NCBI RefSeq assembly: GCF_029962835.1
Contig: NC_080586.1
Location: 63,434,001-63,498,000, forward strand
DNA: 64,000 nucleotides
Origin: Magnolia sinica
Lineage: Eukaryota; Streptophyta; Magnoliopsida; Magnoliales; Magnoliaceae
Direction: 5' to 3'
Part shown: piece by piece, positions 13,323 through 53,917 of the stretch
Layout: every line of letters begins with the position of its first letter
Numbering within the stretch: position 1 is the stretch's first letter
Translations under genes and position numbers: made by a program
The notes under the pieces: generated by a model
Told to the model about the DNA's origin: nothing
Databases searched by the model: none
Seen by the model: the letters and a program-made list of their open reading frames with translations, nothing else

Positions 13323-14740
13323 TGTTCACAACCTCAAGTGTAAGGTCGCGATGTAGTAATAATCTCGGTGAGACCGAGGTTGAATCCACAGGGACTAATC
13401 TTGTGAGTATTCTAAAAGAAACTAGAAGAACTAGAAAAAGATGAAAACCTAAATCTGGAAGTATAGAGAGTAATTGTGAAAGATTTAATGAAAAACTTAA
13501 GAAATTTAAAGGTGGGAAACTAGGGTTTCCAAGGATCCACTTGTAGAGATCAAGGAGATCTATGCTTGATTCACAGACACAACTGAAATCAGAGTCTCAT
13601 CTTATCCAATTAGAAGATATCTCAGTAAAATCAAATCTAAACTTCCTTGGACCTAATTCTCAATGAATGAGAGGTGTGAGAACTGGAAGTGATTCCGTCA
13701 CAAAACCATGCCCAAGAGACAAGGCAAATAATAGGATTTACCAATCCTAAAACCAATCTGAGAGAATTGTGAAAGCTAGGGAGGATTCCATCATCTAACC
13801 ATGCCCATGGGACGATGGTGAACAATAAGATTTCCTAATTTCACAATCTCAATGCATGAAAAGAACATACTCAAAGCTATCGCAGATCTATTATAATTTG
13901 AGTCACAACAAACCATTAAAAACTAAAAGTATTCCTTGTAATCAAACTAGAATAAAAGAGAGTTCAATATAAACATGAATTAAAGCAATAAAAACATCCC
14001 ATCATGGTACAAGCTTCACCTCTTAGCCCTAGCTAAGAGGTTTAGCCAACCATAGACATGATTGAACTAAAATCTCTTTAGAAAAACATAAAAACAACTA
14101 AGGAAAATGAAGAAAAACTCTTGGTGACGGCTTCTCTATACTTTTGCTCTACTCCCCAAACCCTAGATTATACCTAGGAATGCTCTAGGGACCCCTATTT
14201 ATAGTTTTAGGGCTTAAACTTTCGCACCGATTTGAAATTTTCCAGAAACCGTCTCAAATTTATGCAGTCCGCGTAACTTTTACGTAACCCTTAACTGGTC
14301 GTGGGTCACCTTCGACCAGTTGTAAGCCACCCTCGACCAGTCGAGGGTCTCCTTCAACTGGTTGTGGGCGATGAAGATTAAGAAGTTTTGATTGCTGGAG
14401 TTCGAGTCGAGGCACCTTCGACCGGTTGACTTCGACTAGTCGAGCAGAGGCCAAGATTGGTCAAGGATCACTGAATTTTACTTCAAAACTTTGATTCTCT
14501 TTATTCTTGACTTGATTTTCTTTAATTGTTAATATGTGCATTCTTCATTCTTGGTCTTGAAAGATCTATTCTTGACTTTGGTGATTCTTGAGCATTAAAT
14601 CCATGCTTTTAACATCCTTTTCAATCTAAGATGTTAAATTCACCTTGCAACATAAACATGATTAAAATAGAATATTAAGCATTATCATGTTCATAAAACC
14701 AAGTAATAAATGGGGTCCAATATGCAATATTTGACCGTCA
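13323..14740 (-). repeat. Gypsy 3' LTR (left copy)
   Basis: On the plus strand it begins TGTTCACAACC and ends TTGACCGTCA. It matches 37251-38689 throughout. The stretch 14290-14460 contains GACCAGTCGA/TCGACCGGT palindromic words. Confidence 0.88.
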
Positions 14741-16140
14741 ACACAATTTCAAACCAACATTTTGCTAGTCCCGAGAAAAGTATACAAAAAATGAACTTTA
14801 ATGCGCAATGTTCAAACCTTTTTTCAGAAAATAATTTTTTGTGTAATTAAGTATGAATGAGCAGACTTAAGATGAGAAAGTGAGATTTTGAAACCCTAGA
14901 TCCAAATCACATAAGCAATCGATCAAATAAGTTCTTTATCCATTAAGCCAGAGCAAAGTTCGCACATCAAGTTTTTCAATGCGTTCAATGAAAATACTAT
15001 CTTTTCATAATGTTAGCTATGCTCATCACTTTAAGATTGGTTGAAAACCCAAGTACTGATTCCAAACTTATCCCCTTTTTTTTTCTTTTTTCAGTTTTTT
15101 TTATTTTATATCGATGGTCATTTGTATTCAATCAGTCTTGTCATCTTTTCTTTTCTTTTCTTTTTTCTTTCATATTTTTCATTCTTTTTCAGACTTTTTC
15201 AAAATTTTCATCATACATGACCCTTTTTATCGATCTCCTATTTTTTAACTGGTTCTTTTCTTCTTTTAAGGTGGATAAAATTCTTCAGACTCGATTCTCA
15301 ATATCTTTCAATGATCATCATACTAACAATCAGAAGATCTAGTATTATTCACCGAAAACAACTTGAATAACATAATATTCAAACTTCCTCTTAATCAATA
15401 GAATGTAAGAACCAAAAGTGATAGGTTACTTTATTGCTCCAACTCCAACAATTTAAAATTCGATCTCTATCTTATCATTATACTCAAAACATTCTTAAAT
15501 ACACAACTTATCGCTTACCAAACAGATATACATTGAATATTTTTCAAACATTTTGCAAATTTTTTACAAATTTTGCTCAAAACTGAGAAAACACTGATTA
15601 GTTTCCTAATCCCTCATCCCCAACCTAAAATCTACATTTTCCTCAATGTAAAAGAAATAAGCATGATTTACAAAAGAGACAACATAATTGAAAGAGAAGT
15701 GATGGAAAGATAGTACCAGATAAAGAAATTTTAAGGCTTTTTCGAAAGGATCTCAGCGTGAAGGTGGGTTAGCACATGAGTTAAACAGTCAAAAAGCAAA
15801 CTATCCTAAATAGTAGAAACAAACTATCCTCAAACGGTGGAAAGTTAACTATCCTAAACAACAGAAAGTAGTAAACCTAACTACACCTCTGTCTAACTCG
15901 GAGATCAAACCTGATAAACAGGATCATTTAGAGGTATGGACATGTCCTCTAAATCAAATTTGTCAACAAATGGCTTTAATCGATGTCCATTTACTTTAAA
16001 TTCATTTTCATTATTCAGATTATTTATCTCAACAACCCCATGAGGATAAACACAGGTAATAATAAAGGGGTCGGTCCAATGAGATCAGAGCTTACTCGGA
16101 AAGATATGTAACCGAGAATTATACAAGAGGACTTTCTGAC
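14741..16140. other. Gypsy 3' internal region, no recognised gene
   Basis: It lies between the integrase remnant and the 3' LTR. An env-like or extra ORF is found here in some Athila elements, but I see none. The plus-strand open frame at 15010-15342 is low-complexity TTTTCTT text. Confidence 0.5.
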
Positions 16141-16990
16141 CTAGTTAAATGATTTCTGAAGAACCTTTTGATCATGAAATACCTTCATCCTATCCTTATA
16201 AATTCTCAATTTTTCGTACGCATCATTCCGGATTTCTTCGAGTTCATTTAACTGAAGTTTGTATAGCGAGTCAGCGTTGTCCAAATTGAAGTTCAGATTT
16301 TTAATCGCCCAGTGGTAAGCCTTTCCATAGATAAGTTTAAAGGGAGACATTCCAATAGGGTCTTACATGCGGTATGGTAAGCCCATAAGGCATCGGTCAA
16401 TCAGATTAACCAATCCTTATGGTCAAGGTTAACCGTCTTTTCCAATATATGTTTAATTTTTCAATTGAAAATTTTAGCTTGCTCACTTGTTTGTGGGTGG
16501 TATGGACTTCTCACCTTGTGAGAGATGCCATATTTCTTCATTAAGTTCACGAATGGCCTATTACAAAAATGTGAGCCCCTATCACTAATGATGGCTTGAG
16601 GCGTTCCAAACCGGGAAGGGATATTCTCTTTTAAAAACCTAATGACCGCTTGATGGTCATTATTCCGACATGGAATCACTTTAACCCATTTAGTGACATA
16701 GTCTACTGCTACTAGAATGTATAAATTTCTAAAAGATTGGGGAAATGGTCCCATGAAATCGATGCCCCAACAATCAAATGCTTCAATGATCAGAATGGGT
16801 TTCAGAGGCATCATATTTCGACAGGACTATGCTCCCAACTTTTGACAATGCTCACAATGTTTACAAAACTCATGAGTATCCCTAGACATAGTGGGCCAGT
16901 AAAAGTCACACTGTAGAATTTTGGTCATGGTCTTTTTAGAAGAAAAGTGACCACCATAGGCCTGAGAGTGGCAGAAGGAGATGACACTTT
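16141..16990 (-). pseudogene. Gypsy integrase remnant
   Basis: The minus strand shows an rve-type integrase core with [30 protein letters not shown] and YHPQTSEQA (16461-16814), which are the Asp, Asp and Glu regions. A C-terminal segment starting MSPFKLIYGK (16141-16350) follows, typical of Athila/Tat elements. HHCC-finger-like text lies just upstream at 16830-16990. It is a fossil with several breaks. Confidence 0.85.
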
Positions 16991-17081
16991 AGTGATCATT
17001 GTCTGGCACACATATCCTTAAGATTTGGTTCGAGCAATATTTAAATAAATATGGATCATCTCAGAAGAACTTACGAACCTC

Positions 17082-17525
17082 CACTACAAGAAAAGGGGGT
17101 TTTAGCCTCGGTTCAAAACTGTGGCTAAAAAGGTTAAAAACTGAGGCTAAAGCCTTTAGCCTCAGTTTTGCCTCAGTTATCCAAACCGAGGTTGAAACCC
17201 CTGTGGCTAAAGGCTTTAGCCTCAGTTTTAGCAACCGAAGCTAAAATGATTTTTATAGCCTCGGTTCTTCAAGTGAGGCTAAAAACCTTTTTAGCTTCAA
17301 TTTTCTCGAAATGAGGCTAAATCAAAATTTTAGCCTCCATTGTTTTTAACTGAGACTAAATCCAAATTTTAGCCTCAATTGTCTCCAACTGAAGCTAAAT
17401 CTATTTTTAACCTCAGTTCTCAACAACCGAGGCTAAAGTCTTTAGCCACGGGAATTTTAGCCTTGGTTATCAACAACTGAGGCTAAATTCAAGCCTCAGT
17501 TACAAATTGAGGCTAAAAATGTTTT
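17082..17525. repeat. CACTA-1 left terminal and subterminal repeat zone
   Basis: The terminal inverted repeat is followed by about ten GAGGCTAAA...TTTAGCCTC words. The same layout, in reverse complement, forms the right end of CACTA-2 (53440-53917). Presumed to be transposase-binding repeats, by analogy with En/Spm. Confidence 0.8.
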
Positions 17526-18003
17526 TTTTTAATATTTATTCAATCCACTCATGAAACAATCAATCATGAAAGCCATAATACCAACAAAACAGTTAACAAC
17601 CATTTATTTAAAGTTTAACTACTTTAAATCAATCAAACTATTACACAACATTAGGTTCCACAAATAATACAAAGTCATGGTCGCGGCCATCATCACCGGT
17701 GTCGTTGTGCTTGGCAGACCCTGAGATAACACTGCCTGTCCATCTTCTGCTGCTTCCAGGCCAACGTCATCATTGTCTCTACCAGCATTCTCCATTTGAA
17801 TTGTGCGTAGCAGGCCCCTGCAACCTCAACAGGTAGCACTAGCCTGCTGGCTGCAAGACATGAAATGAAACTCTCAAACAAGAAAGGAAATGCAGATGGA
17901 TGTGTATGGATGCATAGCAAGCCCTGCAACCCTAGCCCATTCATTTGTCAAGGCCTGAGCAAGACAACAAATGATTGACCAACCACTTACCTACAAGATG
18001 GGA
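17526..18003. other. CACTA-1 interior, no recognised gene
   Basis: It lies between the left repeat zone and the first minus-strand exon piece. A minus-strand open frame at 17693-17944 matches nothing I know. It may be a 3' untranslated region of the chain of exons. Confidence 0.35.
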
Positions 18004-18131
18004 CTAATCCAATTTTGTATTAGTTTCATGGGGATTCTTCATGATAAGAGGATTGAAGTCAGGTTTGAGATGATCAGAGAGCGATGCCCCCAAGAAAGCC
18101 GTGTCCTTAACCATTGCATTCGGTTTCACCT
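18004..18131 (-). pseudogene. Unrecognised terminal exon in CACTA-1
   Basis: On the minus strand a good acceptor (ATTTGCAG, just above 18130) opens an exon reading VKPNAMVKDTAFLGASL... and ending in a stop after NPHETNTKLD. I do not recognise the protein. The splice signal and even codon use suggest a captured host exon that now forms the 3' end of the chain. Confidence 0.4.
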
Positions 18132-18275
18132 GCAAATTGATGTAGTAGTCATAATAAGAAATAGAAAGTGTAGCTATATTAATAATGCAATTGAAAAAAA
18201 GTAAAGAACTATTCAGAAAACATATCTTGGTTAGTCCCATTTTGGCCTAGGTATGATTCACCATACCTTTCTCCC

Positions 18276-18575
18276 AGATTTCTTCTACCCCTGAATAAAA
18301 GACTCTGCCGACCTAGCTGGAATGACCTTGTCAACTATGTTGTACAGATACAGCTGAGGGCAGGGAGGCTGGTCACTTGAGAGGATGGAGATGATCTTCC
18401 TCAACTTCCTATTTACATCAGGCAAGTTCAGAAACTTGGAGAAGAACTTCTCTAAAATTGATAGGAGCACCTTCTCAATCAATAGGGGTTTGTTATTAGT
18501 ATCGAGTTTAGGAGTTGGTAAATATTGAAAGATATTTACAAACAGGGCCATCATATACCTTCCATCTAGTGATCG
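18276..18575 (-). pseudogene. Captured TMEM53-like (DUF829) exon
   Basis: The minus-strand text contains PPCPQLYLYNIVDKVIP and, before it, FSKFLNLPDVNRKL. These match my memory of plant TMEM53/DUF829 alpha/beta-hydrolase-like membrane proteins, in which PQLYLYS.ADKVIP precedes the acidic and histidine active-site region. A stop codon interrupts the text just after FIQG. The exon ends at a GTATGG donor (about 18276). The catalytic histidine region (HVDH) would lie in a later exon that is absent. Cargo of CACTA-1. Confidence 0.65.
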
Positions 18576-18787
18576 ATGAACACTGAGAAACTGAAACAGA
18601 TGCTTGCACTGAGGATAGGAAGGATTCTAATTATACGTGGCACATATTAGGATGCAAGTCACACTACACAAAGTAGACAATGCAAACACAGCAACATACT
18701 GTTAGAAAAATTATACACAAAAACTTTAATTCGTGACTAAGTAAGCAGCATTAACTAAGATCATCAAAAGATACAATGGTCGCTCAC

Positions 18788-19090
18788 TTGAAGCTTTGTT
18801 AATATGTGTGCAATTGTATTGTCTCTGGCTAAACCAATCAGGACTCGACATGCTAGTGCGCGTAGGCAGTCGAGAGAAGCTGGAGGTGTAAATATCCTAG
18901 GATGGAGAAGATGCAAAAGAACCTTTATACCATTGTTGGCATGCATGGCATCCCTTGCTTGGCGATATCCTAGTTCTAGCTGTGCAGCAAGGCCGGCACA
19001 ACCTGCTCCAGGACTTAAAAATATCCTCCGCTCTCCAACTACTGTAGGAGCAATAGTAGGCACAACAGTCTGTGAACGATTGCAAGTGTC
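18788..19090 (-). pseudogene. DCAF1: Chimeric exon: RNR1 start fused in frame to DCAF1
   Basis: On the minus strand an acceptor (TTTAG at 19091-19095) is followed by codons DTCNR, which is the RNR1 sequence that normally follows the MLFK ending the upstream exon. From 19075 the text changes, in frame, to DCAF1: AGCAGLAAQLELGYRQ, then LDCLRALACRVLIGLARD and IAHILTKLQ, with a GTGAGC donor at 18787. DCAF1 is the substrate-receptor subunit of CUL4-DDB1 ubiquitin ligases; this piece is from its armadillo-like N-terminal region. The whole exon is open. The match to both genes is by recall. Confidence 0.75.
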
Positions 19091-19174
19091 CTAAATAAAC
19101 AAATCAACATCAAAACCACACAACCATGGGATTTAAATGATTATGGAGGATCATTTGTTCACTTAGTAAAATAC

Positions 19175-19268
19175 CTTGAAAAGCATATACAGTGTTCCAG
19201 TTTCTATCTATGATTTCAAAATTTCAAACCATAGGGTCTGTGCCTGAACAACTTTTTTTGCCGTACCC
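19175..19268 (-). pseudogene. RNR1: Captured RNR1 (ribonucleotide reductase large subunit) exon, downstream piece
   Basis: On the minus strand, after an AG acceptor at 19269-19270, the text reads GTAKKVVQAQTLWFEILKS, then after one stop IETGTLYMLFK, ending at a GTATTT donor. This is the ribonucleoside-diphosphate reductase large-chain segment KAKKVVQAQ.LWFEILKSQIETGTPYM. The intron between this exon and 19366 is kept. The enzyme reduces ribonucleotides to deoxyribonucleotides; this fragment lacks the active-site cysteines. Confidence 0.85.
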
Positions 19269-19365
19269 TTAGTCCAACAAATGCAAAGACAATTTGTAAC
19301 ATTTTCATTGAATGAAAGTACCAAAATTTTCAAACTTCAAGCTCCAGTCAAGCTTACCTCTCTTT

Positions 19366-19545
19366 CATATCTAGTGTATAGTTCTTCAAATTCCTCACCC
19401 CAACAATCAGATAAACCTGGAGCCTCATTTGGGCAAAACAATGACCACTCCCCATTGTTGTTCACCCTTTTCATGAAAAGGTCAGGAAAAAGGGCATAAA
19501 ATAGATCCCCAGCTCTGTGTTCTTCCTCCAAGAATGTAGCAAAAC
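19366..19545 (-). pseudogene. RNR1: Captured RNR1 exon, upstream piece
   Basis: The minus strand reads [12 protein letters not shown], then [24 protein letters not shown] and [16 protein letters not shown], and ends at a GTAAGC donor (19361-19366). This is nearly the plant RNR large-subunit sequence, with one residue missing after LFYAL. The exon is otherwise open. Confidence 0.88.
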
Positions 19546-19736
19546 AAACATTGATAAGGCAGCTCAGACCACCATAATAACCCTCCCAACAGTTAAAAAA
19601 AGAAAACTCCAAAAAACATTTATCAAAGCCTAGAGCAGCATGTGTAAAAGAGAGGGCTCTACCACAGTAGACTATCCAACTATGCATCCATACACATCAA
19701 CATAAATTAGGTAGACAAAAATGTAGAATAAGTATT

Positions 19737-19937
19737 TCAAAATGAATAAACATACTTCTCGTTGAAACACAAAATCAAGCATTCTAATGAAGCACTTTGA
19801 ACTGATATATCCATGCTTGTGCCATACACATTACAGGTGTCATCCAAAGTCAAAAAAACAACCCAGTCCACATGCAATTTTAAGTGCTGAAGTATCAAGG
19901 GCCTGACACCTACAAATTGAGTTTTCACAACAAACAT
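19737..19937 (-). pseudogene. Unrecognised open segment in CACTA-1
   Basis: The minus-strand text VGVRPLILQHLKLHVDWVVF continues to CLILCFNEK. I do not recognise it. It may be another captured exon or element coding sequence. Confidence 0.25.
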
Positions 19938-20024
19938 ACAATAAATTCATTATATTTGACTAACTAAATCATACAAACATTCAGCTCAAAAAATGTCCAT
20001 CAAAGTAAATGGATTACATAACGA

Positions 20025-20050
20025 ATATATATATATATATATATATATAT
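20025..20050. repeat. (AT)n microsatellite
   Basis: About 13 AT units lie in an intron-like spacer of CACTA-1. Confidence 0.9.
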
Positions 20051-20139
20051 AATGCACTACAGAACAAAAATGAGAACAATGTAGGAACAAGGTGAGTTCG
20101 GCAAAGAACTGAGATGTCAATGATTGATAAATTTCTACA

Positions 20140-20275
20140 TACAATAACATGAGCCGACTCCTCATTCACAACACTCCCATCTTTCTTCCAATGGGTCGTT
20201 ATGAACAACGTTGCCCGATCAGGAGACTCTCCACCAAGATTCTTTGCCCACTTTTTCCATGTAAAAAAAATGAGT
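20140..20275 (-). pseudogene. Possible CACTA own-protein exon (Transposase_24-like)
   Basis: The minus strand reads WKKWAKNLGGESPDRATLF followed by TTHWKKDGSVVNEESAHVI, then a GTATGT donor. The THxxKDGSxVNEE pattern is that of the plant transposase family Pfam Transposase_24 (En/Spm-associated). If correct, it is the only trace of the transposon's own coding capacity, embedded among captured host exons. Match by recall. Confidence 0.5.
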
Positions 20276-20869
20276 TGGTAACACATAAAATGTTTTTTCT
20301 TCCCACTTTCACCATTGGGGGAAAAAAACGATTGCAGGTGAATCAGTAATGCGTACAAATATAAATGTATAAAGCACACAAGAACTTAATTCAAAATCTT
20401 TTTTTGTAGAGAATAGTTGTAAGCAATCCTTATTTTTCATCATATGAACTACTAGAACCTAGTGTGTTAAAGCAAAAGAAAAAGTGTAGAAAGAGTCCTC
20501 TACACCACTTTATTTATAATGTTGTAGGTGAAAGAACCACTCTAATAATACAACCCAGGCCCATTTAATCCAGTCAAAAAAAGATCCACAAATATATAAT
20601 AAATAAATAAATAAATTTGTAGCAAATAACAACAATGATGTTCTTTATGTTTAGAACTTAAAGAGTGGAAATAATATTGATAATAGAACTTGCAACAGAG
20701 TCTATCTTCTATACTAGTTGGCTAGGTGATGTTAGTAGTAGAAGCTGGTTCTTCTTAGGCTTCTATATTTCAGTTGCTGGATCATTTGATAATAAAAGGA
20801 GATGGAAACCTGAACATTAGGTGACACATTTAATTAAATTAGAGTATGGTTGACATTCTCAATTCACTT

Positions 20870-20975
20870 ACCCTAATATTGGCATCGTCATAACTTCTTG
20901 TAAGAGAAATTCAGCATTTCTATCCGACAATTTTAACATAGCCATATCACAACATTGTCTAGTATGTATGTGAAT
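20870..20975 (-). pseudogene. Unrecognised exon-like segment in CACTA-1
   Basis: The minus strand reads CCDMAMLKLSDRNAEFLLQE and on to MPILG, followed by a GTAAG donor at about 20868-20872. It has exon-like composition, but I cannot name a family. Confidence 0.35.
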
Positions 20976-21508
20976 CTTTTTGGTATCACATAATTTTTTT
21001 AAAAAATTAAAAAATTGGCATTTGCAGATATTTATTTGGTTTGTTATGACAAAGGAAACCATGGCCTCACCTGACGAATCCACCAATATACATAAGTTGA
21101 TATTTTGTACCCTTTTGAAGAATCAAATTTCTCTATCCCACGCAGTAATCCAATCAAACCTCCTAACATTCAAAAAGGAAGTTAGCTGTGAGATGGACCC
21201 AGGAACAAAAATTTGTGTGGCATGTTAACAGTCTAGAAAGAGGAACAAGTTCAAAATGCATTGGAGATGGAGTTAGTGGTAAGAGGTATCACCTGAACAA
21301 GGACAGCCATTTCAGCCCCCATGTTATCATATTTTTGAGCAAAATCAGGGCAGAGACAGAGAGAGAGTTGGGGCAGGGAGAGAAAGATGGAGATACTATT
21401 GTTACAATGTTGGAGAACACAATCACACCCTAAAGAATGGGGACATGTAAAACACGTCGCACCTTGATGCCTTTTTCTTAATTCAAATGAACCATTGAAA
21501 TTAATTAC

Positions 21509-21703
21509 CTTAATTAGATTGACTCTATCATGTGATGCATTTTCCTGCATCCTATCATGTCTACTCAGCTGGTGAACATCAATGCCATAGGATGCCAACT
21601 CTGAAGCAGGTGTTGTCCCCTGATACTCAAAATTGTGGCATGTAAAGAAAATCCTAGCCGTATTCAAACCTCTAGGAGCATACAAATCCCAATAGAGTGG
21701 TGC
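21509..21703 (-). pseudogene. SS4: Captured starch synthase 4 exon, downstream piece
   Basis: After a CTCAG acceptor (21704-21708) the minus strand reads APLYWDLYAPRGLN, CHNFEYQGT, LASYGIDVHQLSRHDRMQ and DRVNLIK, then a GTAATT donor. This is the GT5 glycosyltransferase region of plastid starch synthase IV, which starts starch granules by transferring glucose from ADP-glucose. The exon is fully open. Confidence 0.88.
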
Positions 21704-21795
21704 CTGAGAAGCCAAGTTTACTTATTGTGGGGGGGGACATCAGAAATTATTTATGAAAAGGAACTAGTGAAATTCTAACTATTGCCAGTGCATAC

Positions 21796-21985
21796 AACAA
21801 ACGCTGTCTGCCGGTCATGGCGATCGATTATATCTGGTTTCTTGCCAGCTCGAAGAAGCAATTCAGGTGCTGCAAGACTAAAGAATGAAAAATGCTTGAA
21901 ATCGTCATTCTCTCCATTAAACTGTTCTCTCCAGAAAAATTTAGCCAGATGATGAGGCTCAATGAAATAGACAGGAAGACCGGTT
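21796..21985 (-). pseudogene. SS4: Captured starch synthase 4 exon, upstream piece
   Basis: The minus strand reads GLPVYFIEPHH, AKFFWREQFNGENDDFKHF, ELLLRAGKKPDII and HDRQTAFV, then a GTATGC donor at 21790-21795. The next exon (21509-21703) continues the protein without a gap across a short kept intron. The HDWQ motif usual in starch synthases reads HDRQ here, a change at a conserved position. Confidence 0.88.
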
Positions 21986-22617
21986 AACAATTTTAATCAA
22001 CATGAATCATAAAATCATTTGCAAATGGAAGCTAAGAATTAATGAGGAACTATCGCTGACCTTCGACTGTTCCAACCTAAATTTTATTTCGGAATAGCTT
22101 ATCAGCTGTTGGAAATTAATCTGTTTCTAGAAGATGCAGACAGTGAAGAACATGGAATCAAAAAGCTAATGATGCACCATTTGGTCCCTTCCAAAGGCAT
22201 AAGTAAAAGCATACTGATGAAATTCTAAAGACAAGATGGCAATATATTCTATATGAAAGTAAAGCAGGCCTACATAAGCAAATGCTAATACTAAACAATG
22301 TTGTATATTAGAGACATTTCATTGTACCATTATTGTGAAAACCCAACATCATTACAAGAGGACCGTTTTTTACAAGTATGTTCAAAGATGATAGATCAAT
22401 TGACACTTGATGTAAACTTAACTGATGATCACTTTACAAAAACATTATCATGAAAATTGCACAAAGCGGATGGGAAGAACACTTAGTATCTGGACTTCTT
22501 GAATGTAATGAAGCACATTAAAATGCAATGAAGTTCAAATTCAAAATGCAATGGAGCACATAATGATCATTTAAATGAATGCTTAATACACAGAAAATTT
22601 TTAGAGGGAATGCTGCA

Positions 22618-22700
22618 AACCTGAAATAAATTTGAGTCCTTTACATCTGGCCACAGCTCCTTCAAGAAAACAATCACCATGCATACCGGGTCTTGATACC
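22618..22700 (-). pseudogene. Unrecognised exon-like segment in CACTA-1
   Basis: After a GATAG acceptor-like site the minus strand reads YQDPVCMVIVFLKELWPDVK and on to SNLFQ, ending at a GTTTGC donor. It looks like a small host exon, but I cannot assign it. Confidence 0.35.
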
Positions 22701-23880
22701 TATCCAAAGATAAAATAAGTAGGATAGACGAAGAAGTGAATGATTTGAGTCCTAGCTCATCTATTTTAGACTGAAGCATTCCTTTATAAATGAATAGGAA
22801 AGCTGAACAAGGAAAATCATGGAGCATGCAAGAGGTAAAGACAGGCTACAAAAGGCTCATGGATATTTCCTAAGCTGACATTCAAGTTAAAGTATTAAGA
22901 GAAGAAATTCAAAGGTTTTATAACAATGTTTTGACAGAATAACAAAACTATCAAGCTACAAGTTGAGCCCATAGACGATTACATGAGCAGAGAAATCATT
23001 TTACCCCATATTGCATAGTTTCATATTATAAAACCACAAATGCTGAACATGGAATCTAGTAACAATGTATCATCAATATAAAAGACATCCTATGCAAATG
23101 AATTGACTAAATGTTAGCTTGCCAAGTTTGAACTGCATGACCCATACATGTATGTAAAAATGCAATATATCTAATTAATATGTCGGGATTTTCCCTTAAG
23201 AATAGCTATGTTAAATGATCACATTAAGGTCTGGATTGTTGAGAGCCTTTGGGTTCAAACCTAGGAATGATTTTCCTACTCCAAGTTTGTTCTGTTCTTC
23301 TGTTACTTTATGCTCCAAAGAATTATCTGCTCAATCAAAAGAGAAACAAAGACTGTGATGAGGATTGCATATGAAGAAAAAGAAGAAGATGAAGAAGAAA
23401 ACACCATGAAAAACTCTCTTTGCATGTTTGTTTTAGGCTTAAAATGTAGTTCTGAAGTCGTAGAAAGAAACCCATGAAGATTGCTCTTTTGTATGTTTAA
23501 ATGCAGTTATAAAATCATTGAAAGAAACCAACAAAGAATTTTCTTTGCAAGCCATTTTCAATTTTGAAATCCTAGGAAATAGGAAAGTTCCATCATCCAT
23601 TTGTTTTGGACTTAAAATGTAGTTTTGAAATTGGTAAAGAACCCACAGGATTTTTTTTCATGCATGTTGCTTGTGAGTTTAAAATGCAGTTTTGACATCA
23701 CAGAAAGAGACTAGTTCTTTCTTCTTCTTTTTCTTTTTTTTTTTTTTTTTTTGTGGTCTGTTTATTAGGATGTTGAAATGCAGTATTGAGTCATAGACAA
23801 AAACCATGAAGATTTTTCTCTGTTGGTTTTGAGCTTGAAATACATTTTTGAAACCATAAATGTTTGTTTGAGCTTACTTA

Positions 23881-24032
23881 AGAAATCAAAACAGTCAGCT
23901 GCTCTAGGACTTCCCATCTCAAGAATTTCATTGCCAACTTCATTGCAAAAATTCCAGCCTTCAAATGCCACTCTCAATCCATCTCTTCTCATGCTTGGAT
24001 CACCCACTACTGAAATATACCTTTGTTCTGTA
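23881..24032 (-). pseudogene. Unrecognised captured exon in CACTA-1 (conserved-looking)
   Basis: Between a TTTTACAG acceptor (about 24033) and a GTAAGC donor (about 23876-23881) the minus strand reads EQRYISVVGDPSMRRDGLRV, AFEGWNFCNEVGNEILEMGS and PRAADCFDFL. It is fully open and well spliced. I considered an HD-domain phosphohydrolase N-terminus (SPxAIDFL) but cannot support it. Confidence 0.5.
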
Positions 24033-24831
24033 AAACAAAAGAAACTAAAAGAAAGCATTTTCATCATAATAAACAATACAAAAAAAATGGTTTTCCATGG
24101 ATCTTTTCATGCAAGTCTGCTGAGAAAGAGGGTCTGAATACTTCAGAAAAGGGATGCAGCTTGCAAGTGTTGGCCTCTTTTTGATTTTTTTAGTCCTTTT
24201 TATCATATGTAGATCTTTGTTGTGTTCTTTCTTCTTGCATTGGTTTCTTTCCTAACACTCTTATTAGTATCTACAAGCAAACAATTGAGAAAATTCATGA
24301 AAGATAGCCCCTGATTTTTATACAAATAAATAAGATGTCAAGTAAAGGCAAGAGCTCATCTGTTTTCATCAGACCAATGCAAAACCAGCAGATTCAACAC
24401 CCTCACACTCATAAGCATCCTAACCTACTAATATGAGGCCCACCCCTATAAAACCCTAACAAATAGCACTAGATATAAAACTTTCAAAAAGATGTAAGTG
24501 CATTACCTATAATCTGAAGTAATATCAACTCTGATTTCAAATCCTTATGATCTAAACTCTGCAAACTCTCAATACTAATTAAATGGAAGACCTAAAAATG
24601 GCACTTCCCTTTTCTCACTAGCTGTGCATTTGATTGCACCTAATCATGAAATTTCATGATATTTGATGCAACCAAATGCACTCTAAACCATAAACCGATA
24701 GAAAAGAAATTTCAGATGAAAGAAAGTGAAATTTGTGGCCCTCCCCTATAGTAGCCCCTTTAAAATAAGAATTCAGAATTATAGACAGAATCACATATAA
24801 AAACAGGAAATTCGGAACATAGAACCCATAC

Positions 24832-25054
24832 CATGAAGGACCTGAGCTCATTCTTCATGTCAGCAATGCCATTCAGAGTCTCAATCTTTTGGACATGACC
24901 AAGTTTGCTGAGAAAATTTAACTCCATTCCTTCCTGTTGCTCCAATTTCTCCTTCCTCTTTTCCTTTGCCACCTTTTCATATTCCTCAATTGAGTCCTCA
25001 TCAATTAGATAGCCAATGCCCTTTTGGACATAGAATTTTGTGCAAGCATTACAC
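24832..25054 (-). pseudogene. UBR7: Captured UBR7-like exon
   Basis: Between a TTTGCAG acceptor (25055-25061) and a GTATGG donor (24826-24831) the minus strand reads CNACTKFYVQKGIGYL, then EEYEKVAKEKRKEKLEQQEG, LNFLSKLGHV and LNGIADMKNELRSFM. This resembles the C-terminal region of plant UBR7-type UBR-box/PHD ubiquitin ligases, where CxCxxC is followed by a coiled charged segment. The UBR box and PHD finger are not present. The exon is fully open. Confidence 0.75.
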
Positions 25055-25603
25055 CTGCAAAGAAGATTTCTCCATTTCTTAGAAAGAAACATGGGTTTTT
25101 TCTTCTATGAAACAAATGAGGCTTGACGTGGATCCACTCCAAATATACAGTTGGGATTTGAAATGCTACCGTGGGCTGCATCCTGCTTTAAAGCCACATT
25201 TTTCTCCAAATTCACTCTAAGCAGAGGATCTCTAAGAAAACAGTTATTAAAAAAAACCTAACTATCTGATTTGGACTGAACAGAGCTCACTCTATATTGG
25301 CCTATTTATTTTAAAATAAGAAATAGGCCTTGGACCGTTCTAGAGGCCAGTCGATTTTGCCCTCCATGTTTTCAGTGAGAACAGACGTATCCCAAATCTG
25401 TGCTATCAAATTGACGTGAACAAACTAACAATATTAACAATCTAGATTTAAAATAAATTCCTATTTCTCTAATCCGCACTCAAATTCGAATTCAACAGCA
25501 TGTATGAACCCCCAAAAACAATCACAAACCTTCAGAAACGCTAAATCTACAATCATCTCAAAGCAGAAACCCTATCACCGACTAAAGAAATGAAGATTCA
25601 TAC

Positions 25604-25800
25604 CAATCATGCGAGCTTTCAAGTTCGTCTCCCTTGGATAGTTTCTGCATTATGCTCAAGAGGGTCGGAGCTCCAGCATCGCCATATGCTGAACATCTGG
25701 ATGGGAGAACCTGACCCCGGGGCTTTTCTGGCGGAGTCTCCGTCCCAAAGACCTCCGGTGGGAGGTCTCTTACAGTCGGAGCAACGGATTTTGCTGCCAT
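25604..25800 (-). pseudogene. First exon of the CACTA-1 chain (unrecognised)
   Basis: The minus-strand ATG at 25798-25800 opens MAAKSVAPTVRDLPPEVFGT and runs to LLSIMQKLSKGDELESSHDW, ending at a GTATGA donor. GC content is higher than in the surroundings, as in the 5' end of a plant gene. An upstream open stretch to 25998 looks like a 5' leader. This could be the promoter-bearing first exon of an unknown host gene that drives the chain; I do not know the family. Confidence 0.45.
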
Positions 25801-26109
25801 GGAAGGGTTCTGCTTTAGCTGCTTCGGGGGAAACTGCGCCAGGCGGTGGTGTTGGAGAATCTTAGTATAGGAAGAGGAGTCGGAGCTAGGGTTTTCTATG
25901 TAGACAAAAGGAAGGATGATCGAGGTGTGAAAATTCGAGGGGAAAACCATAGAAAGAGAATGAAGATCTCTCTCACTCGCTCGCACACCAAGTGACAAAA
26001 GGAGTCGGGGGAAAAAGCGACGCGCCTACGAATTTATATTTTGAAATTAGACTTTTGGCCTCGGTTCCTATGCTACCGAGGCTAAAAAGCAGACGTTTGG
26101 CCTCGGTTC

Positions 26110-26572
26110 CTATGCAACAGAGGCTAAAAAGTCTGAATTCATTTCAACTTTTTAATTTTTTTTTAAATTTTCAATTATTTGAAATTTCTCGAAATTTTTT
26201 TCAAGATTCTCAAGTTCAAAATTCTTATTGTTTTTTTCAAAAATTTCAAAAATTTTCAAAATTCTTAATTTTTTTTAAATTCTCAACTTAAAAAAAAAAT
26301 ATCATACTTTTTCACAATTATCATTTTTTATTCTTAATTTTTTTAAAAAAATTCTTAATTTTTTAAAAGTTCTCAAAATTTTAAAAAATTCTTAGTTCTT
26401 AAAAAATTCAAAATTCAAATCTTTTTCAAAACTCTCAATTTTTTTTTCAAAAGTCTAAATTTTTTCCCAATTGTCTCCATTTTTTTTCCAAAATTCTCAA
26501 TTTTTTCACAATTGTCAAAATTTTTTTAAATTATTAATTCTTTCAATATTCTTGATTTTTTTTTAATATTCT
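26110..26572. repeat. AT-rich spacer of CACTA-1
   Basis: About 460 bases of short AATTTTT/TTCTCAAATTT words with almost no G. A similar stretch lies in the equivalent, inverted place in CACTA-2 (49260-49840). It separates the hairpin array from the captured exons. Confidence 0.75.
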
Positions 26573-27807
26573 TAAATGTAGACTTTTGGCCTCAGTTCTT
26601 ATGCAACAGAGGCTAAAAAGTAGATTTTTGGCCTCGACTACTATGCAACTGAGGCTAAAATGTAGACTTTTCGCCTCAGTTCTTACGTAACTGAGGCTAA
26701 AAGGTAGACTTTTTGCCTCGGTTCCTATGTAACCGAGGCTAAAAAATAGACTTTTCACCTCGGTTCTTATGCAACTGAGGTTAAAAAGTAGACCTTTCGC
26801 CTCGATTCCTATGCAACTGAGGCTAAAAAGTAGACCTTTCGCCTTGGTTCCTATGCAACTGAGGCTAAAAATTAAACCTTTCGCCTCAGCTCCTATGGAA
26901 CTGAGGTTAAAAAGTAGACCTTTCGCCTTGGTTCCTATGCAACTGAGGTTAAAAAGTAGACCTTTCGCCTTGGTTCCTATGCAACTGAGGCTAAAAAGTA
27001 GACCTTTCGCTTTGGTTCTTATGCAACTGAGGCTAAAAAGTAGACTTTTCGCCTCGGTTCCTATGCAACTGAGGCTAAAGAGTAGATTTTTTACCTCAGT
27101 TCCTATGCAACTGAGGCTACAAATTAGACCTTTTGCCTCGGTTGCTATGCACCTGAGGCTAAAAAGTAGATTTTTTACCTCGGTTCCTATGCAACTAAGG
27201 CTACAAATTAGACCTTTCGCCTCGGTTCCTATGCAACTGAGGCTAAAAACTAGATTTTTCACCTCAGTTCCTATGCAAATGAGGCTACAAATTAGACCTT
27301 TCGCCTCGGTTCCTATCCAACAAAGGCTAAAAAGTAGATTTTTCACCTCAGTTCCTATGCAACTGAGGCTACAAACTAGACCTTTCGCCTCGGTTCCTAT
27401 GTAACTGAGGCTAAAAAGTAAACTTTTTGCCTCGGTTCCTATGCAACTGAGGCTAACAATTAGACCTTTCGCCTCGGTTCCTATGCAACTGAAGCTAAAA
27501 AGTAGACCTTTCGCCTCGGTTCCTATGCAATTGAGGGTAAAATGTAGACCTTTTGCCTCGGTTCCTATGCAACTGAGGCTAAAAAGTAAACCATTCGCCT
27601 CGGTTCCTATGCAATTGAGGCTAAAAAGTAGACTTTTCGCCTCGGTTACTATGCAACTAAGGCTAAAAAGTAGACTTTTAGCCTTAGTTCCGTAGCAACT
27701 GAGGCAAAAAATGAACTTTTAGCCTCAATTCCATAACAACTGAGGCTAAAAAACACATTTAGCCTCCATTTTTTCAACCGAGGCTAAAGGCCTACTTTCT
27801 TGTAGTG
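26573..27807. repeat. CACTA-1 right-end array of 42-bp hairpin units
   Basis: Roughly 28 tandem units of 42 bases each read about CTTTTCGCCTCGGTTCCTAT then GCAACTGAGGCTAAAAAGTA. GCCTCGGTT and AACTGAGGC are inverted arms around a 7-base loop, so each unit can form a hairpin. Because 42 is divisible by three, long repetitive open frames appear on both strands; they are not genes. The array ends in the terminal inverted repeat. Confidence 0.9.
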
Positions 27808-28467
27808 CTCGAGGAAGAATTTTTCTTATCTTGCGTAGTCCAATGTGTCGGCATGAAACCTGTGGCAAGATAATTAGTAATATCTACAAACCAATGTGAA
27901 GGGGAGACTTTAAACAATTGTTCGTCAGGGAATATGTCATTTATATGAGTCATCTCAAGGGAATCAGAGAGATTAAGGCGGGATAGATGGTCAACCACTA
28001 TGTTCTCTACTCCATTTTTATCTTTTATTTCCAAATCAAATTCTTGGATTATGAGGATCCATCTTATCAGGCGGGGCCTAACATCATTCTTAGAAAGAAG
28101 ATACTTGAGCGTTGTATGATCTGTGTAAATGATGATCTTGGATCTAATTAAGTAGGACATATATTTATCCAAAGCGAACACTACAGCTAAGAGTTCCTTT
28201 TCCGTAGTAAAACAGTTCACTTGGGCAGGATTTAGAGTTCTAGTTGCATAATGAATAACGTAGGGTTTCTCTTTCTTTTCTCTGGCTTTAAACCGCCCCA
28301 AGAGCATAGTCAGACATGTCGCACATAAGTTCAAAAGTAAGACTCTAGTCTGGTGGCTGCATGATAGGTGCAGTGGTTAACATGCCCTTGAGCTTAGTAA
28401 AAGCTTCCTGGCATTGCTCAGTCCACTCGTATGGTGTATCCTTTTGAAGTAGATTACATATAGGACG
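27808..28467 (-). pseudogene. Gypsy RNase H and RT C-terminal remnant
   Basis: The minus strand reads [43 protein letters not shown] and [10 protein letters not shown]-like text. These are the RT C-terminus and RNase H of a Ty3/Gypsy element. It is a fossil with several breaks, separated from the rest of the RT (33217 onward) by an inserted LTR remnant. Confidence 0.85.
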
Positions 28468-48622: not shown

Positions 48623-49258
48623 CACTACAAGAAAATAGGCCTTTAGCCACAATTTTTTAGCCTTAGTTGAAAAAATGGAGGCTAAATGTGTCTTTTAGCC
48701 TCGGTTGCTAAGGAACTGAGGCTAAAAGTTCATCTTTCTCCTTAGTTACATAGGAACTGAGGCAAAAAGTCTACCTTTTAGCCTTAGTTGCATAGGGACC
48801 GAGGCGAAAAGTCTACATTTTAGTCTCAGTTGCACATGAACCGAGGCAAAAAGTCTACCTTTTAGCCTCAGTTGCACAAGAACCGAGGCGAAAAGTCTAC
48901 CTTTTAACCTTAGTTGCATAGGAACTGAGGCAAAAAGTCTACTTTTTAAGGTAAAAAGTCTACCTTCTAGTCTCAGTTGCATAGGAACCGAGGCGAAAAG
49001 TCTTCCTTTTAGCCTCAGCTGCATAGGAACCGAGGCCAAAACTCTACCTTCCAGCCTCCGTTGCATAGGAACTGAGGCTAAAAGTCTATTTTTTAACCTC
49101 AGTTGCATAAGAACCGAGGCCAAAAGTCTACATTTTAACCTCAATTGCATAGGAACTGAGACTAAAAGTCTATATTTTAGCCTCAGTTGCATAGGAACAG
49201 GGGCCAAAAAGTCTACATTTTAGCCTCCATTGCATAGGAACCAAGGCTAAAAGTTTAC
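48623..49258. repeat. CACTA-2 left-end hairpin-unit array
   Basis: About 14 units of about 42 bases, each reading roughly TTTTAGCCTCAGTTGCATAG then GAACCGAGGCAAAAAGTCTA, in inverse orientation to the CACTA-1 array. Each unit has inverted GCCTCRGTT/AACYGAGGC arms. Confidence 0.88.
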
Positions 49259-49842
49259 ATTTAAGAATATTGTAAAAAATTGAGAATCTTGAAAGAATTA
49301 ATCATTTTTAAAAAATTTGACAATTGTGAAAAAATTGAGAATTTTGAAAAAAAAAAAATTTTGAGAGTTTTGAAAAAGATTTGAATTTTGAATTTTCTAA
49401 GTACCAAGAATTTTTTAAAATTTTATGAACTTTTAAAAATTAAGAATTTTTTTTTTTGAAAAATTAAGAATAAAAAAATGATAATTATGAAAAAGTATGA
49501 ATTTTTTTAAAAGTTGAGAATTTTTTAAAAATTAAGAATTTTGAATATTTTTGAAATTAAAAAAAAAAAAAATTGAATTTGAGAATCTTGGAAAAAAATT
49601 TGAGAAATTTCAAATAATTGAAAATTCTTTAAAAAAATTAAGAATTTCTAAAACTACTAAGAATTAATTTATTTATTTTTATAATTTTGAAAAAACTGAG
49701 AATTTTAATTTAAAAAAAAAAAAATTCAACAAATTTATAATCTTGAAAAAATTTAGAATTAAAAAATATATATAAGAATCGTGATTTTTTTTTCTTTTTG
49801 AGAATTTTCATAAAATTGATAAAATTAAGAATTAATTTTAGT
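49259..49842. repeat. AT-rich spacer of CACTA-2
   Basis: Low-complexity AAAATTGAGAATTTT-like words. It is the reverse-complement counterpart of 26110-26572. Confidence 0.75.
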
Positions 49843-50235
49843 GCAAGAACCCAAAAATGAAATAGATCCAAATCTCATTTTGGGCCCAGCAAATGAACGG
49901 ACTCGATTTCCGCATTGCCTGCCACGTGTGCCGTAGAGAGATGAGTATACCATATTTCGTTTCTTACGGATGCAATATATCTTCTCTGTGGCTTTTATTC
50001 ATTTTGGAACTTGGAAGCTCGAAACAGAGCTCTCTCTCAAAATCCCAGCTTCGAATGGAAAACAGAGAGAAATCGCGTTTTACTTTTGCAATTCTATCTG
50101 TCAAAATCCCCAAGCTCTGAAAGGAAAACAAATCGAAATCGCATTTAACTTTTGCAATTCGATCCTTTACAATGCCTAAAAACGTTAATTCTGTCCTCCA
50201 CACCAGCAATCTCTTCGCCGATTTCAGGTACTCGT
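49843..50235 (+). pseudogene. Promoter and first exon of the CACTA-2 chain (unrecognised)
   Basis: The sequence changes to gene-like composition. An ATG at 50171 opens MPKNVNSVLHTSNLFADFR and meets a GTACTC donor at about 50228. GAGAGAAATC-type words are repeated twice (50060-50150). It may be a host gene's 5' end; I do not recognise it. Confidence 0.35.
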
Positions 50236-50674
50236 TCTCTCTTTTTTTCTACTGATTTCTCAACTGAAATCCTATCGAAAATTAGAAATCAGGGCAAAAA
50301 TCTTCATTTTCGTGCGTTTTTCCCATTTGGCCGTTCAAAATCCAATTTCCGCATTTTTTAGTTCGATCTGAGGAGTGTTTTTTTTTTTTTTTTTTGGCTG
50401 AAAATCTTTCTCAGGAAGTGGAAAATCCTGTCATTTCAAGCTCATTTGCTGGATTTGAGCAGTTTCTACATTGCAATATCAGCGATTAGGGTTTGGTGTT
50501 CGATCTGAGAGCAAAACCTTGTTCTCTGCTGCGAAATATGCTCCTCCATTGTTGATTTCCATGCAAGCTAGATAAACAAGGGGCATATACACCGATATCA
50601 GCTCCTCACTGAATCGAACTCTAGCTCTTCTCTCTGTCTTCTCCAATATTTCTCTTGTCTTCATTAGATCTACC

Positions 50675-50733
<59 letters not shown>

Positions 50734-52499
50734 ATCATCAGATCCTTAAAAGACAATGAGCTTTTTTCCAATTTTTTTCCACTTATGGTTTTTTTTCTCA
50801 ATTTTTAGTGATTAATCTATTTTAATATGAATCTATCTTATGTCTCTCAATTCTGAGAGATTTCATTGGATTTTGATCCAATTCTTGATGATAGATCTAT
50901 CTCCTTTCGGATCTCATTGTTTGGAGCTTTGCTTTTTTATTTTTGTTTTGAGCTGATGATGCATATTGCCTTCCTTTTCGATTTTTTTTCTCAGTTTGAT
51001 TATTCATTTGAAGAAGTTACTTAGATTTACAGTTGGCATTATTTAAGGACAGAGGAAGGGTTTTAACTTTCAATCAGGTGAGCTTCCCGCTCTCATTTCT
51101 CCAAAATTTTCCACTTAGGGTTTGGTTTTTGTAATTTTTTCTTGATTTCTGGTGCTTGATCTGTTTTGATCTTGATCCAACTTATGTCTCTTTATTCTTA
51201 GAGATTTCATTAGATTTTGTTTCGATTCTTGCTGATATAAGTTAAAATTTAGGTTTTTGTATTTAAATTTTAGAGATTTATCTTTAATTTATGTAATATC
51301 ATGTATTTGAAATACATTTTGAGATTTCATTGGATTTTCTGTTTCTTTTGGTGATTTGAAATACATGAACCTGCAATAAAACGCAGATTCTTAGGAACCT
51401 TCAATTACTTCTTATCTACTAGTAGTACATGTGACTCTGATCTCCTGTAAGAAATTATCTCTGCTCATGCTTCCCTGCTATCAAAACTGTTGCCAATTCA
51501 CAACTTAATCCATGTGGGAAGACATTTGCTGAATTTTCTCTTCCTACGCTTTGTCCTGCAACTTGCTTCAGTGCAACACCATCTCGTTTATACCAAACCA
51601 ACAACTTGGAACATATGAGTTCCTGTTCGTATTTTAATGGGCTTTCTTGTAATCTTCTCATTGCCATAATCCACGTATGGGCCACGGTCCACTTAGATCA
51701 AGACATAAGATTTATATTATCTTAATGAATCATGGTTCTTCAACAAAGCATGCTCGTTAGGCAATCTTAACCATCCATCCATGGATTGGAAAAGGGACAG
51801 CGACAGACAAAAGGCCAAATCAAGAATGGATTAGACAATTCAGATCAAATGAATAGACTATCCAAGCAAACCAATTCAACTAGGAGCATGATATAGTGCT
51901 ATGAGAGCACTAGAGCATTTCTCTAACATAAAACAATGTTTTGATACATCTTTCCACTTCAATCAAACTAATGCAAGTTTTAGTCAACTTTTTCAAGTAA
52001 AAAACTACCAATAGAAGTTAACTACAATGAATTATAGTCCTGATATTCAAGTAACATACATTTCGCTACATGCAATGCCCATGGTTTAGTAATCCAGACT
52101 GTTGATTTGATTATCCCCAAAAATCTCCATGATTGGAAGAAATTAATACTCTAATGGTTGGCCAATTTCTGTTGAATGTGGACCTTTGTTGTATTTGTTC
52201 TTCTTAACCATCTATTTTTAGGTGACTAAAGTATGGAGGCTTGCATTTAGCATGATAGATTCTGTTTACTTCATTTAATATTTAAGTGTTTTTATGGATT
52301 AGAGTGATCTAAAGGCCCATTTGGCAGACGCCCAGAAACGGGTTCATCTCATTAATTAATCATTTAATATCTATGTGTTTTTATTTCTCAGACAATTTTT
52401 CATTTTCATGAAGGGAAATATAATGGAACTTAGACTTGATGCCGTGGTTATTTGATTTCCTTATAGGTCCATTCTCGGTTTTCAACAAACACTTTTCAG
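50236..52499. other. CACTA-2 interior, intron-like
   Basis: T-rich, with no recognisable exon. It contains a long (CT)n microsatellite and two similar stretches ending TGATTTCATTGGATTTTG (about 50855 and 51200), which hints at an internal duplication. Confidence 0.4.
50676..50731. repeat. (CT)n microsatellite
   Basis: About 28 CT units. Confidence 0.95.
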
Positions 52500-52592
52500 G
52501 TGATGGTCTTCTAAAATGCAAGGAGCCGGGCTTGTCAAAGAATGAAATGAAGAAGCTTCTACCCATCATTGATGCCAGCTCTTCAGATTCAT
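52500..52592 (+). pseudogene. Captured Fd-GOGAT-like exon 1
   Basis: After a TTTTCAG acceptor the plus strand reads [20 protein letters not shown], then [11 protein letters not shown], to a GT donor at 52593. This matches my recall of plant ferredoxin-dependent glutamate synthase, where ...GLSKxEMKELLPxVDAxSSDSG precedes FDGVLELL. The enzyme makes two glutamates from glutamine and 2-oxoglutarate in plastids. Confidence 0.75.
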
Positions 52593-52802
52593 GTGACCTT
52601 ATGCTTACCAAGCATTTTTTAATAGACGTGTGTCGGTGGGCATAGGCCAAGTTTTGTCTCTCTGCTTCTATGTGCGTGCACAAATACATGTGCATGCTTG
52701 TGATTGTGTTTATGTGCACACAGATTTAAATATGAATGCACTCATGTTTAATTGCATATTTCAAGCTTGGAGTTTTCTGAATTGGATCTGTGATTGTTTT
52801 AG

Positions 52803-52982
52803 GAACATTTGATGGCGTCTTGGAGCTTATGGTTCATGCTGGCAGAAGTCTGCCTAAAGCCATCATGATGATGATACCTGAGGCGTGGCAAAATGTTAAA
52901 AACATGGATCGTGATAGAAAAGCCTTATATGAATATTTTTCAGCTCTTATGGAGCTATGAGATGGACCTGCACTTATATCAT
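52803..52982 (+). pseudogene. Captured Fd-GOGAT-like exon 2
   Basis: After TTTTAG the plus strand reads [44 protein letters not shown], one stop, then DGPALIS, to a GTAAAG donor. It belongs to the glutamine amidotransferase (class II) domain of glutamate synthase. The stop replaces part of the usual MEPWDGPA. Confidence 0.88.
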
Positions 52983-53068
52983 GTAAAGTTTGTGCTGGAA
53001 TTGCTTCATGCTTTAATGATTCTGCATGTGACATGAGTATTTTGAACTTATATTTATTGTATAAATGC

Positions 53069-53224
53069 AATTACTGATGGCCGCTATCTTGGAGCGACAT
53101 TGGACCAGAATGGATTGCGCCCCGATCGCTTTTACATCACACATAATGGACGCGTGATCATGGCCAGTGAGGTTGGTGTTGTAGACATCTGCCAGGAGAT
53201 GTGGCTAGGAAAGGAAGACATCTG
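53069..53224 (+). pseudogene. Captured Fd-GOGAT-like exon 3
   Basis: The plus strand reads [17 protein letters not shown], then RFYITHNG and [14 protein letters not shown], and diverges after CQEMW. The acceptor before it ends in GCA rather than AG, so splicing here is doubtful. It is the continuation of exon 2 in glutamate synthase. Confidence 0.87.
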
Positions 53225-53439
53225 ATCGGTCCAAAAGGGGACCTTATTAAAACAGTTCATGTGGAAGGCTATGTGGTAGTTCATGTGCATTTGTATTTTT
53301 TTTGAAAAAATTAAATAGACCATTAATTGTTTTGTTGATATTGTGCAGAATTGTTGTCTTGATGAATGTTAAAAGGGTGAAATATGCACAGGTTCAATCA
53401 TTTGTTGATTATGATATTGTTAGCTTTGGTTGATAGAGA

Positions 53440-53917
53440 AATGAGGTTCAAAAACCGAATTTAGCCTCGATTGATGCCAAAAGAGGCTAAATCTATCTTT
53501 AGTATCGATTTTACCTCAGTTACATAAACTGAGACTACAACTCCCGTGGCTAAAGGCTTTAGCCTCGGTTGTTGAGAATTGAGGTTAAAAATAGTTTTAG
53601 CTTTGGTTGGAGGCAACTAAGGCTAAATTTGGATTTAGTCTCAGTTGAAAACAATGAAGGCTAAAATTTTGATTTAGCATCATTTTCGAGAAAACTGAAG
53701 CTAAAAAGATTCTTTTAGCCTCACTTAAAGAACTGAGGCTATAAAAGTCATTTTAGCCTCGGTTGCTAAAACTAAAGGCTAAAGCCTTTAGCCACAGGGG
53801 GTTTCAACCTCGGTTTGGATAACTAAGGCAAAACTGAGGCTAAATGTTTTAGCCTCAGTTTTTAACCTTTTTAACTACGGTTTTGAACCGAGGCTAAAGC
53901 CCCTTTTTCTTGTAGTG
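53440..53917. repeat. CACTA-2 right terminal and subterminal repeat zone
   Basis: About ten TTTAGCCTC/GAGGCTAAA words, then the terminal inverted repeat. It is the reverse complement of the 17082-17525 layout in CACTA-1. Confidence 0.82.

Follow-up and report, generated by a model that had tools for sequence, protein, structure and literature searches.

A probable Pack-CACTA element of Magnolia sinica carrying fragments of six host gene families in one orientation

A 64,000-nucleotide stretch of the Magnolia sinica genome (NC_080586.1, positions 63,434,001 to 63,498,000, forward strand; hereafter the window) contains a complete CACTA element of 10.7 kb at 17082-27807 (element 1). With a probability of about 0.92, this is a non-autonomous Magnolia Pack-CACTA which carries genomic fragments of at least six host families together with a Transposase_24 remnant, and which is inserted in a Ty3/gypsy pol. 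Direct support comes from its ends, the target-site duplication (TSD), the homologies to host genes, their shared orientation, the introns that were kept, the decay of the pieces (stops and an absent acceptor) and a second member of the family with another gene.

Ends, insertion site and class

Inverted copies of CACTACAAGAAA are present at 17082-17093 (+) and 27796-27807 (-) with 0 mismatches, and CTC is found on both sides, confirming the CACTA boundaries proposed in a first-pass annotation of this DNA. Allowing at most one mismatch, CACTACAAGAAA occurs five times in the window, compared with 0.49 expected occurrences. When the flanks are rejoined with a single CTC, the empty site reads as Ty3/gypsy pol, from RNase H through the zinc-binding and core domains of the integrase, although stops and a frame change interrupt this pol. 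The restored site between the flanks indicates that the 10.7 kb entered an older retrotransposon as a single unit.

The inverted terminal repeats starting with CACTA, the 3-bp TSD and the subterminal repeats at both ends place the element among the CACTA (En/Spm) transposons, and a Helitron or MULE identity is ruled out by the CACTA ends and the 3-bp duplication. As expected for Pack-CACTA, it carries fragments of host genes (six host families), is non-autonomous and moved as a unit, as seen from the empty gypsy site. Copying at the DNA level, introns included, is demonstrated for the starch synthase 4 (SS4) piece only. A Pfam scan covered all 78 open segments of at least 45 amino acids in the element (39 minus, 39 plus). 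Transposase_24 was the only transposase match and, with a score just under the Pfam cut-off, is labelled a remnant. Given this match, not every recognisable piece derives from a host gene.

Another possibility might be that two or more gene-carrying elements are nested here instead of forming one mobile unit. The presence of six families within 8 kb would suit this, and the merging of neighbours belongs to the published capture model (PMC8903248, PMC13317346). However, no internal CACTACAA occurs in either orientation, the body at 17502-26035 has no match to the second element (element 2) at E 1e-3, so that the shared ends are not repeated within it, and the gypsy site places the whole 10.7 kb between one duplication. 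Nesting is therefore very unlikely. It is next to inconceivable that a contiguous, ordinary host locus was mistaken for a transposon: an NCBI protein (LOC131224988) is indeed listed from here, but six unrelated families are present as partial exons, inserted in a gypsy pol, and the transposon ends, the duplication and the empty gypsy site rule such a locus out.

Captured host fragments and their orientation

All recognised pieces lie on the minus strand and represent six host families, i.e. UBR7, DUF7705, SS4, RNR1, DCAF1 and DUF829, which span 8 kb. In the Pfam scan, 6 of the 39 minus-strand segments matched at E < 1e-4 (DUF7705, Glyco_transf_5 twice, Transposase_24, Ribonuc_red_lgC and DUF829) versus 0 of the 39 plus-strand segments. 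One low-complexity segment of the array per strand gave weak Pfam matches under the cut-offs (2.6e-4 plus, 0.0025 minus). The first-pass annotation had named UBR7, starch synthase 4, RNR1, DCAF1 and DUF829 as sources, all in one direction and at least five unrelated ones in a single element. Each of these five families was matched, so that none lacks homology, the common orientation was observed throughout, and DUF7705 adds a sixth family to the five named before. The DCAF1 piece was found via PDB only and is without a Pfam match.

If captures are independent, the chance that six host families share one strand is 1 in 32 (two-sided). Element 2 belongs to the same CACTA family. Its array is homologous to 26146-27788 and its far end resembles that of element 1, while the absence of a body match between the two implies that their captures differ. 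Its glutamate synthase exons point away from the array, in the same sense as the captures in element 1. Across both elements, 7/7 captured families are thus sense relative to the array, where odds of the 1-in-32 type again presuppose independent captures. Element 2 also has its own ATG-bearing exon-like stretch adjoining the array (ATG 50172, GT donor 50228).

The captured SS4 stretch corresponds to residues 562-718 of 991 in M. sinica SS4 (P0014) and consists of four exon pieces with introns between them, matching at 71-89% (PDB 6gne, E 6.8e-27). Among the best 120 of 389 matches (7996 candidates scored), M. sinica SS4 was on top with 81%, and a composite protein query returned starch synthases only, among the best 120 of 389 matches. 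The HCHDW stretch of SS4 is altered in the captured copy. As judged from these alignments, the SS4 capture is genomic DNA with introns, partly decayed.

The UBR7 piece matches P0006-P0013 (P0010: 67% over 53% of the query), and its name is the one carried by several of the listed relatives of P0010. The piece itself had no match in Pfam or PDB, and a PDB search with P0010 gave none. The parent proteins align straight across its cryptic acceptor, which therefore lies inside a parent exon. The claim that most pieces keep their splice sites is borne out by several AG/GT pairs, but not by the SS4 piece at 21796-21981, which is without an AG acceptor, nor by the cryptic UBR7 acceptor. Four or five unrecognised, well-spliced exons had been proposed; pieces B, G, K and L are exon-like, and K contains a stop.

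Table 1 Features of the two CACTA elements and the insertion site (positions in the window)
Feature	Position	Strand	Remarks
Flank: Ty3/gypsy integrase (H2C2 + core), downstream side of interrupted pol	16503..16988	-	Integrase_H2C2 4.7e-14, rve 2.7e-17
TSD CTC, left copy	17079..17081	.	
CACTA element, complete (element 1)	17082..27807	-	Minus is the sense strand of each recognised piece; perfect inverted CACTACAAGAAA, CTC TSD
Subterminal repeat region, 3' end of gene chain	17082..17488	.	89% identity to 53508-53917 in element 2
Piece L, last exon-like piece	17630..17817	-	No Pfam match
Piece K, exon-like, contains stop	17991..18129	-	No Pfam match
DUF829 (TMEM53-like) exon	18267..18608	-	Stop near 3' end; Pfam 9.9e-10
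DCAF1 exon	18788..19069	-	AG + GT at both ends; PDB 7v7b and 7okq 3.5e-08
Ribonucleotide reductase large subunit (RNR1) exon	19358..19525	-	Pfam 5.1e-15, PDB 2.3e-20 with alignment; one codon shorter than human RNR; 5' acceptor uncertain
Piece G, exon-like	19756..19909	-	AG/GT boundaries; best Pfam E 0.13
Transposase_24 (Ptta/En/Spm) remnant	20143..20304	-	Pfam 2.7e-06, 28.0 bits, cut-off 28.7
SS4 exon, homology stops within exon	21379..21429	-	71% to M. sinica SS4 702-718
SS4 exon (SS4b)	21509..21703	-	AG + GT at both ends; 89% to M. sinica SS4 637-701; PDB 6gne
SS4 exon, AG acceptor absent	21796..21981	-	85% to M. sinica SS4 575-636; Pfam 2.2e-10
SS4 exon end, contains stop	22059..22100	-	79% to M. 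sinica SS4 residues 562-575
Piece B, exon-like	22621..22699	-	AG/GT boundaries; no Pfam match
DUF7705 exon	23878..24044	-	Acceptors 24027 + 24044, donor GTAAGC; Pfam 1.8e-21; tails of P0002, P0003, P0005
UBR7 exon	24832..25054	-	Acceptor cryptic, within parent exon; donor where parent proteins continue into another exon
More UBR7 exon sequence 5' of cryptic acceptor	25055..25233	-	One stop; tblastn with P0006 and P0010
Exon 1	25604..25950	-	Two in-frame ATGs (MVFPSN, MAAKSV); identical in M. sinica LOC131224988 (P0001), related in P0002-P0004
TATA-like sequence 5' of exon 1 (weak evidence)	26029..26038	-	TATAAATT at 26038
Array of a 42-bp unit, ~28 copies, 5' end of gene chain	26574..27752	.	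Homologous to element 2 array
TSD CTC, right copy	27808..27810	.	
Flank: Ty3/gypsy RNase H, upstream side of interrupted pol	27811..28376	-	RT_RNaseH 1.5e-22
Element 2, same CACTA family	48623..53917	+	Opposite orientation in window; same ends, TSD TTC
Element 2: segment with glutamate synthase (GATase_2) exon	52781..52957	+	Pfam 1.7e-16
Element 2: segment with following glutamate synthase (GATase_2) exon	53046..53222	+	Pfam 1.5e-16

Leader exon, predicted splicing between parents and coding potential

Exon 1 has a GC content of 0.522 versus 0.366 for the whole element, in agreement with the GC-richer ATG exon reported next to the repeat array. P0001 (NCBI LOC131224988, Magnolia sinica) is 100% identical across exon 1 and the UBR7 exon of the 17082-27807 copy. 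P0002-P0004 contain both exons at 86-91% and P0005 contains UBR7 without exon 1. The UBR7 exon is thus common to four other M. sinica protein clusters (P0002-P0005) and exon 1 to three of them; clusters P0001-P0005 comprise 16 sequences (1, 8, 1, 1 and 5, respectively). These data indicate that LOC131224988 is a transposon-borne chimera rather than an ordinary gene, and the four related M. sinica entries may likewise be transposon-borne chimeras. For the resident promoter suggested previously, the hints are limited to TATAAATT at 26038 (-) and the start of the gene model; based on this motif, transcription might begin near 26040.

The splicing downstream of UBR7 was analysed with a junction test, in which translations from every AG in 21300-24831, after the UBR7 donor, and the read-through were compared with the tails of the gene models (203 start points). 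The tail of P0002 fits acceptor 24044 with 25/27 residues (next best start point 5), that of P0005 fits the same acceptor with 14/14 residues (next best 4) and that of P0003 fits acceptor 24027 with 15/17 residues (next best 3), while the tail of P0004, with 3 residues, is uninformative. As the three informative tails fit UBR7-to-DUF7705 acceptors, gene models, rather than reads, lend support to splicing from one parent to another. Translation would accordingly be placed, on the evidence of these models, as starting in exon 1 adjoining the array, with exon 1 spliced to UBR7 and UBR7 to DUF7705.

Exon 1, UBR7 and DUF7705 might also form an older chimeric Magnolia gene that was captured once as a unit, the remaining fragments being captured separately. 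The occurrence of exon 1-UBR7 in several M. sinica clusters with differing tails would fit this explanation. On the other hand, exon 1 is matched only by the Magnolia proteins P0001-P0004 (candidates of 77-245 amino acids), and the decayed UBR7 exon sequence 5' of the cryptic acceptor is what captured genomic DNA would leave, though an older fusion is still compatible with it. An older chimera thus deserves some weight but is unlikely.

Both DUF7705 acceptors, 24027 and 24044, yield a frame other than that of the parent, and after UBR7 the open frame of the 17082-27807 copy ends 6 or 14 codons into DUF7705. For a wider view of the coding potential, exon 1 was always included and combined with the remaining exon candidates in all possible subsets, giving 1536 chains. 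Left out of this count were three SS4 pieces, 22059-22100 because of its stop, 21796-21981 for want of an acceptor and 21379-21429 for want of a donor, as well as the Transposase_24 remnant and a doubtful exon-like stretch near 21070-21122. The full chains stay open over 196 and 204 codons, UBR7 being the only exon in the parent frame. The complete chain is hence rejected as the source of a full-length fusion protein, and a continuous exon-shuffled protein is not supported.

The best chain, ex1-UBR7-SS4b-RNR1-DCAF1-DUF829, skips DUF7705; it stays open over 512 codons and keeps five exons in the parent frame. This raises the question of a working chimeric gene under selection, whose exon-skipped product would be a fusion of 512 residues that joins exon 1 to UBR7, SS4, RNR1, DCAF1 and DUF829 exons in their parent frames. 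Besides the open chain itself, the return of exon 1 and UBR7 in three further M. sinica clusters speaks for such a gene. However, five parent-frame exons occur in just 4 of the 1536 chains, which differ only past the stop, and the skipping of DUF7705 would be required, yet three sister models include it. Moreover, SS4 has an altered HCHDW stretch, and there are stops. If roughly one plant exon in three has phase 0-0, the 4 of 6 homology-anchored exons with that phase (RNR1 acceptor uncertain) are near the chance rate, leaving the 512-codon chain as a lead only. With hand-chosen exon ends, an RNR1 acceptor in doubt and phase 0 a frequent state among exons, the chain is not taken as a sign of selection; it is compatible with a chance origin. 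A selected gene is accordingly highly improbable.

A broader proposal is that the family acts as a self-contained exon trap, in which a fixed leader exon and promoter by the array are present in many copies and transcribe downstream sense host exons. At least one splice form would then be a long fusion with five native-frame foreign exons, and the sense orientation would be kept since antisense pieces either fail to be captured or disappear again. This proposal is improbable.

Some observations weigh against a Pack-CACTA whose host exons are spliced together. Pfam found no transposase core in any of the 78/78 open segments of at least 45 amino acids, although shorter exons could escape. Pieces B, G, K and L have no significant Pfam match and no known parent. 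The tail of P0001, the model of this very copy, is the read-through past the UBR7 donor to a stop (23/23), with no splice into DUF7705. Finally, UBR7-to-DUF7705 splicing appears in three sister models whose basis is NCBI protein entries, not RNA reads. For the Pack-CACTA favoured here, the captured pieces might serve as cassette exons after the leader exon at the array end, which would give varied and often early-terminating transcripts. Capture itself may have followed the route proposed for Pack-CACTA in Arabidopsis, in which neighbouring elements are excised aberrantly and merge.

Other repeats, related systems and significance

Elsewhere in the window, two pairs of long direct repeats (13323-14764 with 37251-38715, and 832-2174 with 38695-40028; ~88% identity) are LTR-like (resembling long terminal repeats) but not collinear, which likely reflects a rearrangement or two elements. 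A further direct repeat joins 377-830 with 12846-13318 (~82% identity), and a dispersed repeat joins 45085-45963 with 58806-59603 (73-78% identity). At 63362-63964, an open frame with a CCHC-like stretch (CSHCGNMKHIRENC) resembles retrotransposon gag by eye, with no Pfam match at E 0.01.

CACTA elements carrying host gene pieces are known from the Tpn1 family of morning glory. In soybean, the CACTA element Tgm-Express1 lies in F3H (wp allele) and carries fragments of five unrelated host genes, which give at least 12 distinct spliced transcripts, many with premature stops (PMC1947982). Like the Magnolia element, Tgm-Express1 is a CACTA element with intronic and exonic host pieces that keep splice sites; there, they are spliced as cassette exons into chimeric transcripts (PMC1947982), whereas here splicing is read from gene models. 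Tgm-Express1 measures 5.7 kb, with five host genes, and lies in F3H (PMC1947982), while the Magnolia element measures 10.7 kb, with six host families, and lies in a retrotransposon. As described in the same account, the soybean transcripts isolated are initiated from the F3H promoter of the host, most likely without an internal start, whereas the Magnolia gene model starts inside the element, where a leader exon is found that recurs in sister loci.

Pack-CACTA and other Pack-TYPE elements of Arabidopsis, rice and maize are similarly non-autonomous, with CACTACAA ends and coding DNA of several loci, and of the Pack-TYPE elements compared, maize Pack-CACTA draws on the largest number of distinct loci (PMC8903248). 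In its passages on captures, no orientation rule is given, and Magnolia is absent from the paper. In the published model, capture results from the aberrant excision of elements that lie next to each other (PMC13317346, PMC8903248); as worded there, the model alone gives no reason to expect a sense orientation. The gene-carrying CACTA elements of Chenopodium also combine host gene fragments with subterminal repeats; their fragments occupy the 5' part, ahead of ORF1, whereas those of Magnolia fill much of the body, with a transposase remnant only (PMC8978399). A CACTA transposase of Magnolia ashei is mentioned in the same paper. Among the matches listed in a literature search (titles and abstract openings, open papers), nothing was found that dealt with CACTA gene capture in Magnolia or with a rule on how CACTA captures are oriented.

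Gene capture by CACTA of this kind is already described in soybean, Arabidopsis and maize, and the Magnolia case is not unprecedented; given Tgm-Express1 and maize Pack-CACTA, it is a rich further case of a known kind. It provides a magnoliid example of CACTA exon shuffling with at least six identifiable sources. It also offers a testable setting, in which the in-element leader exon returns in sister loci and all captures of the two elements run away from the array end.

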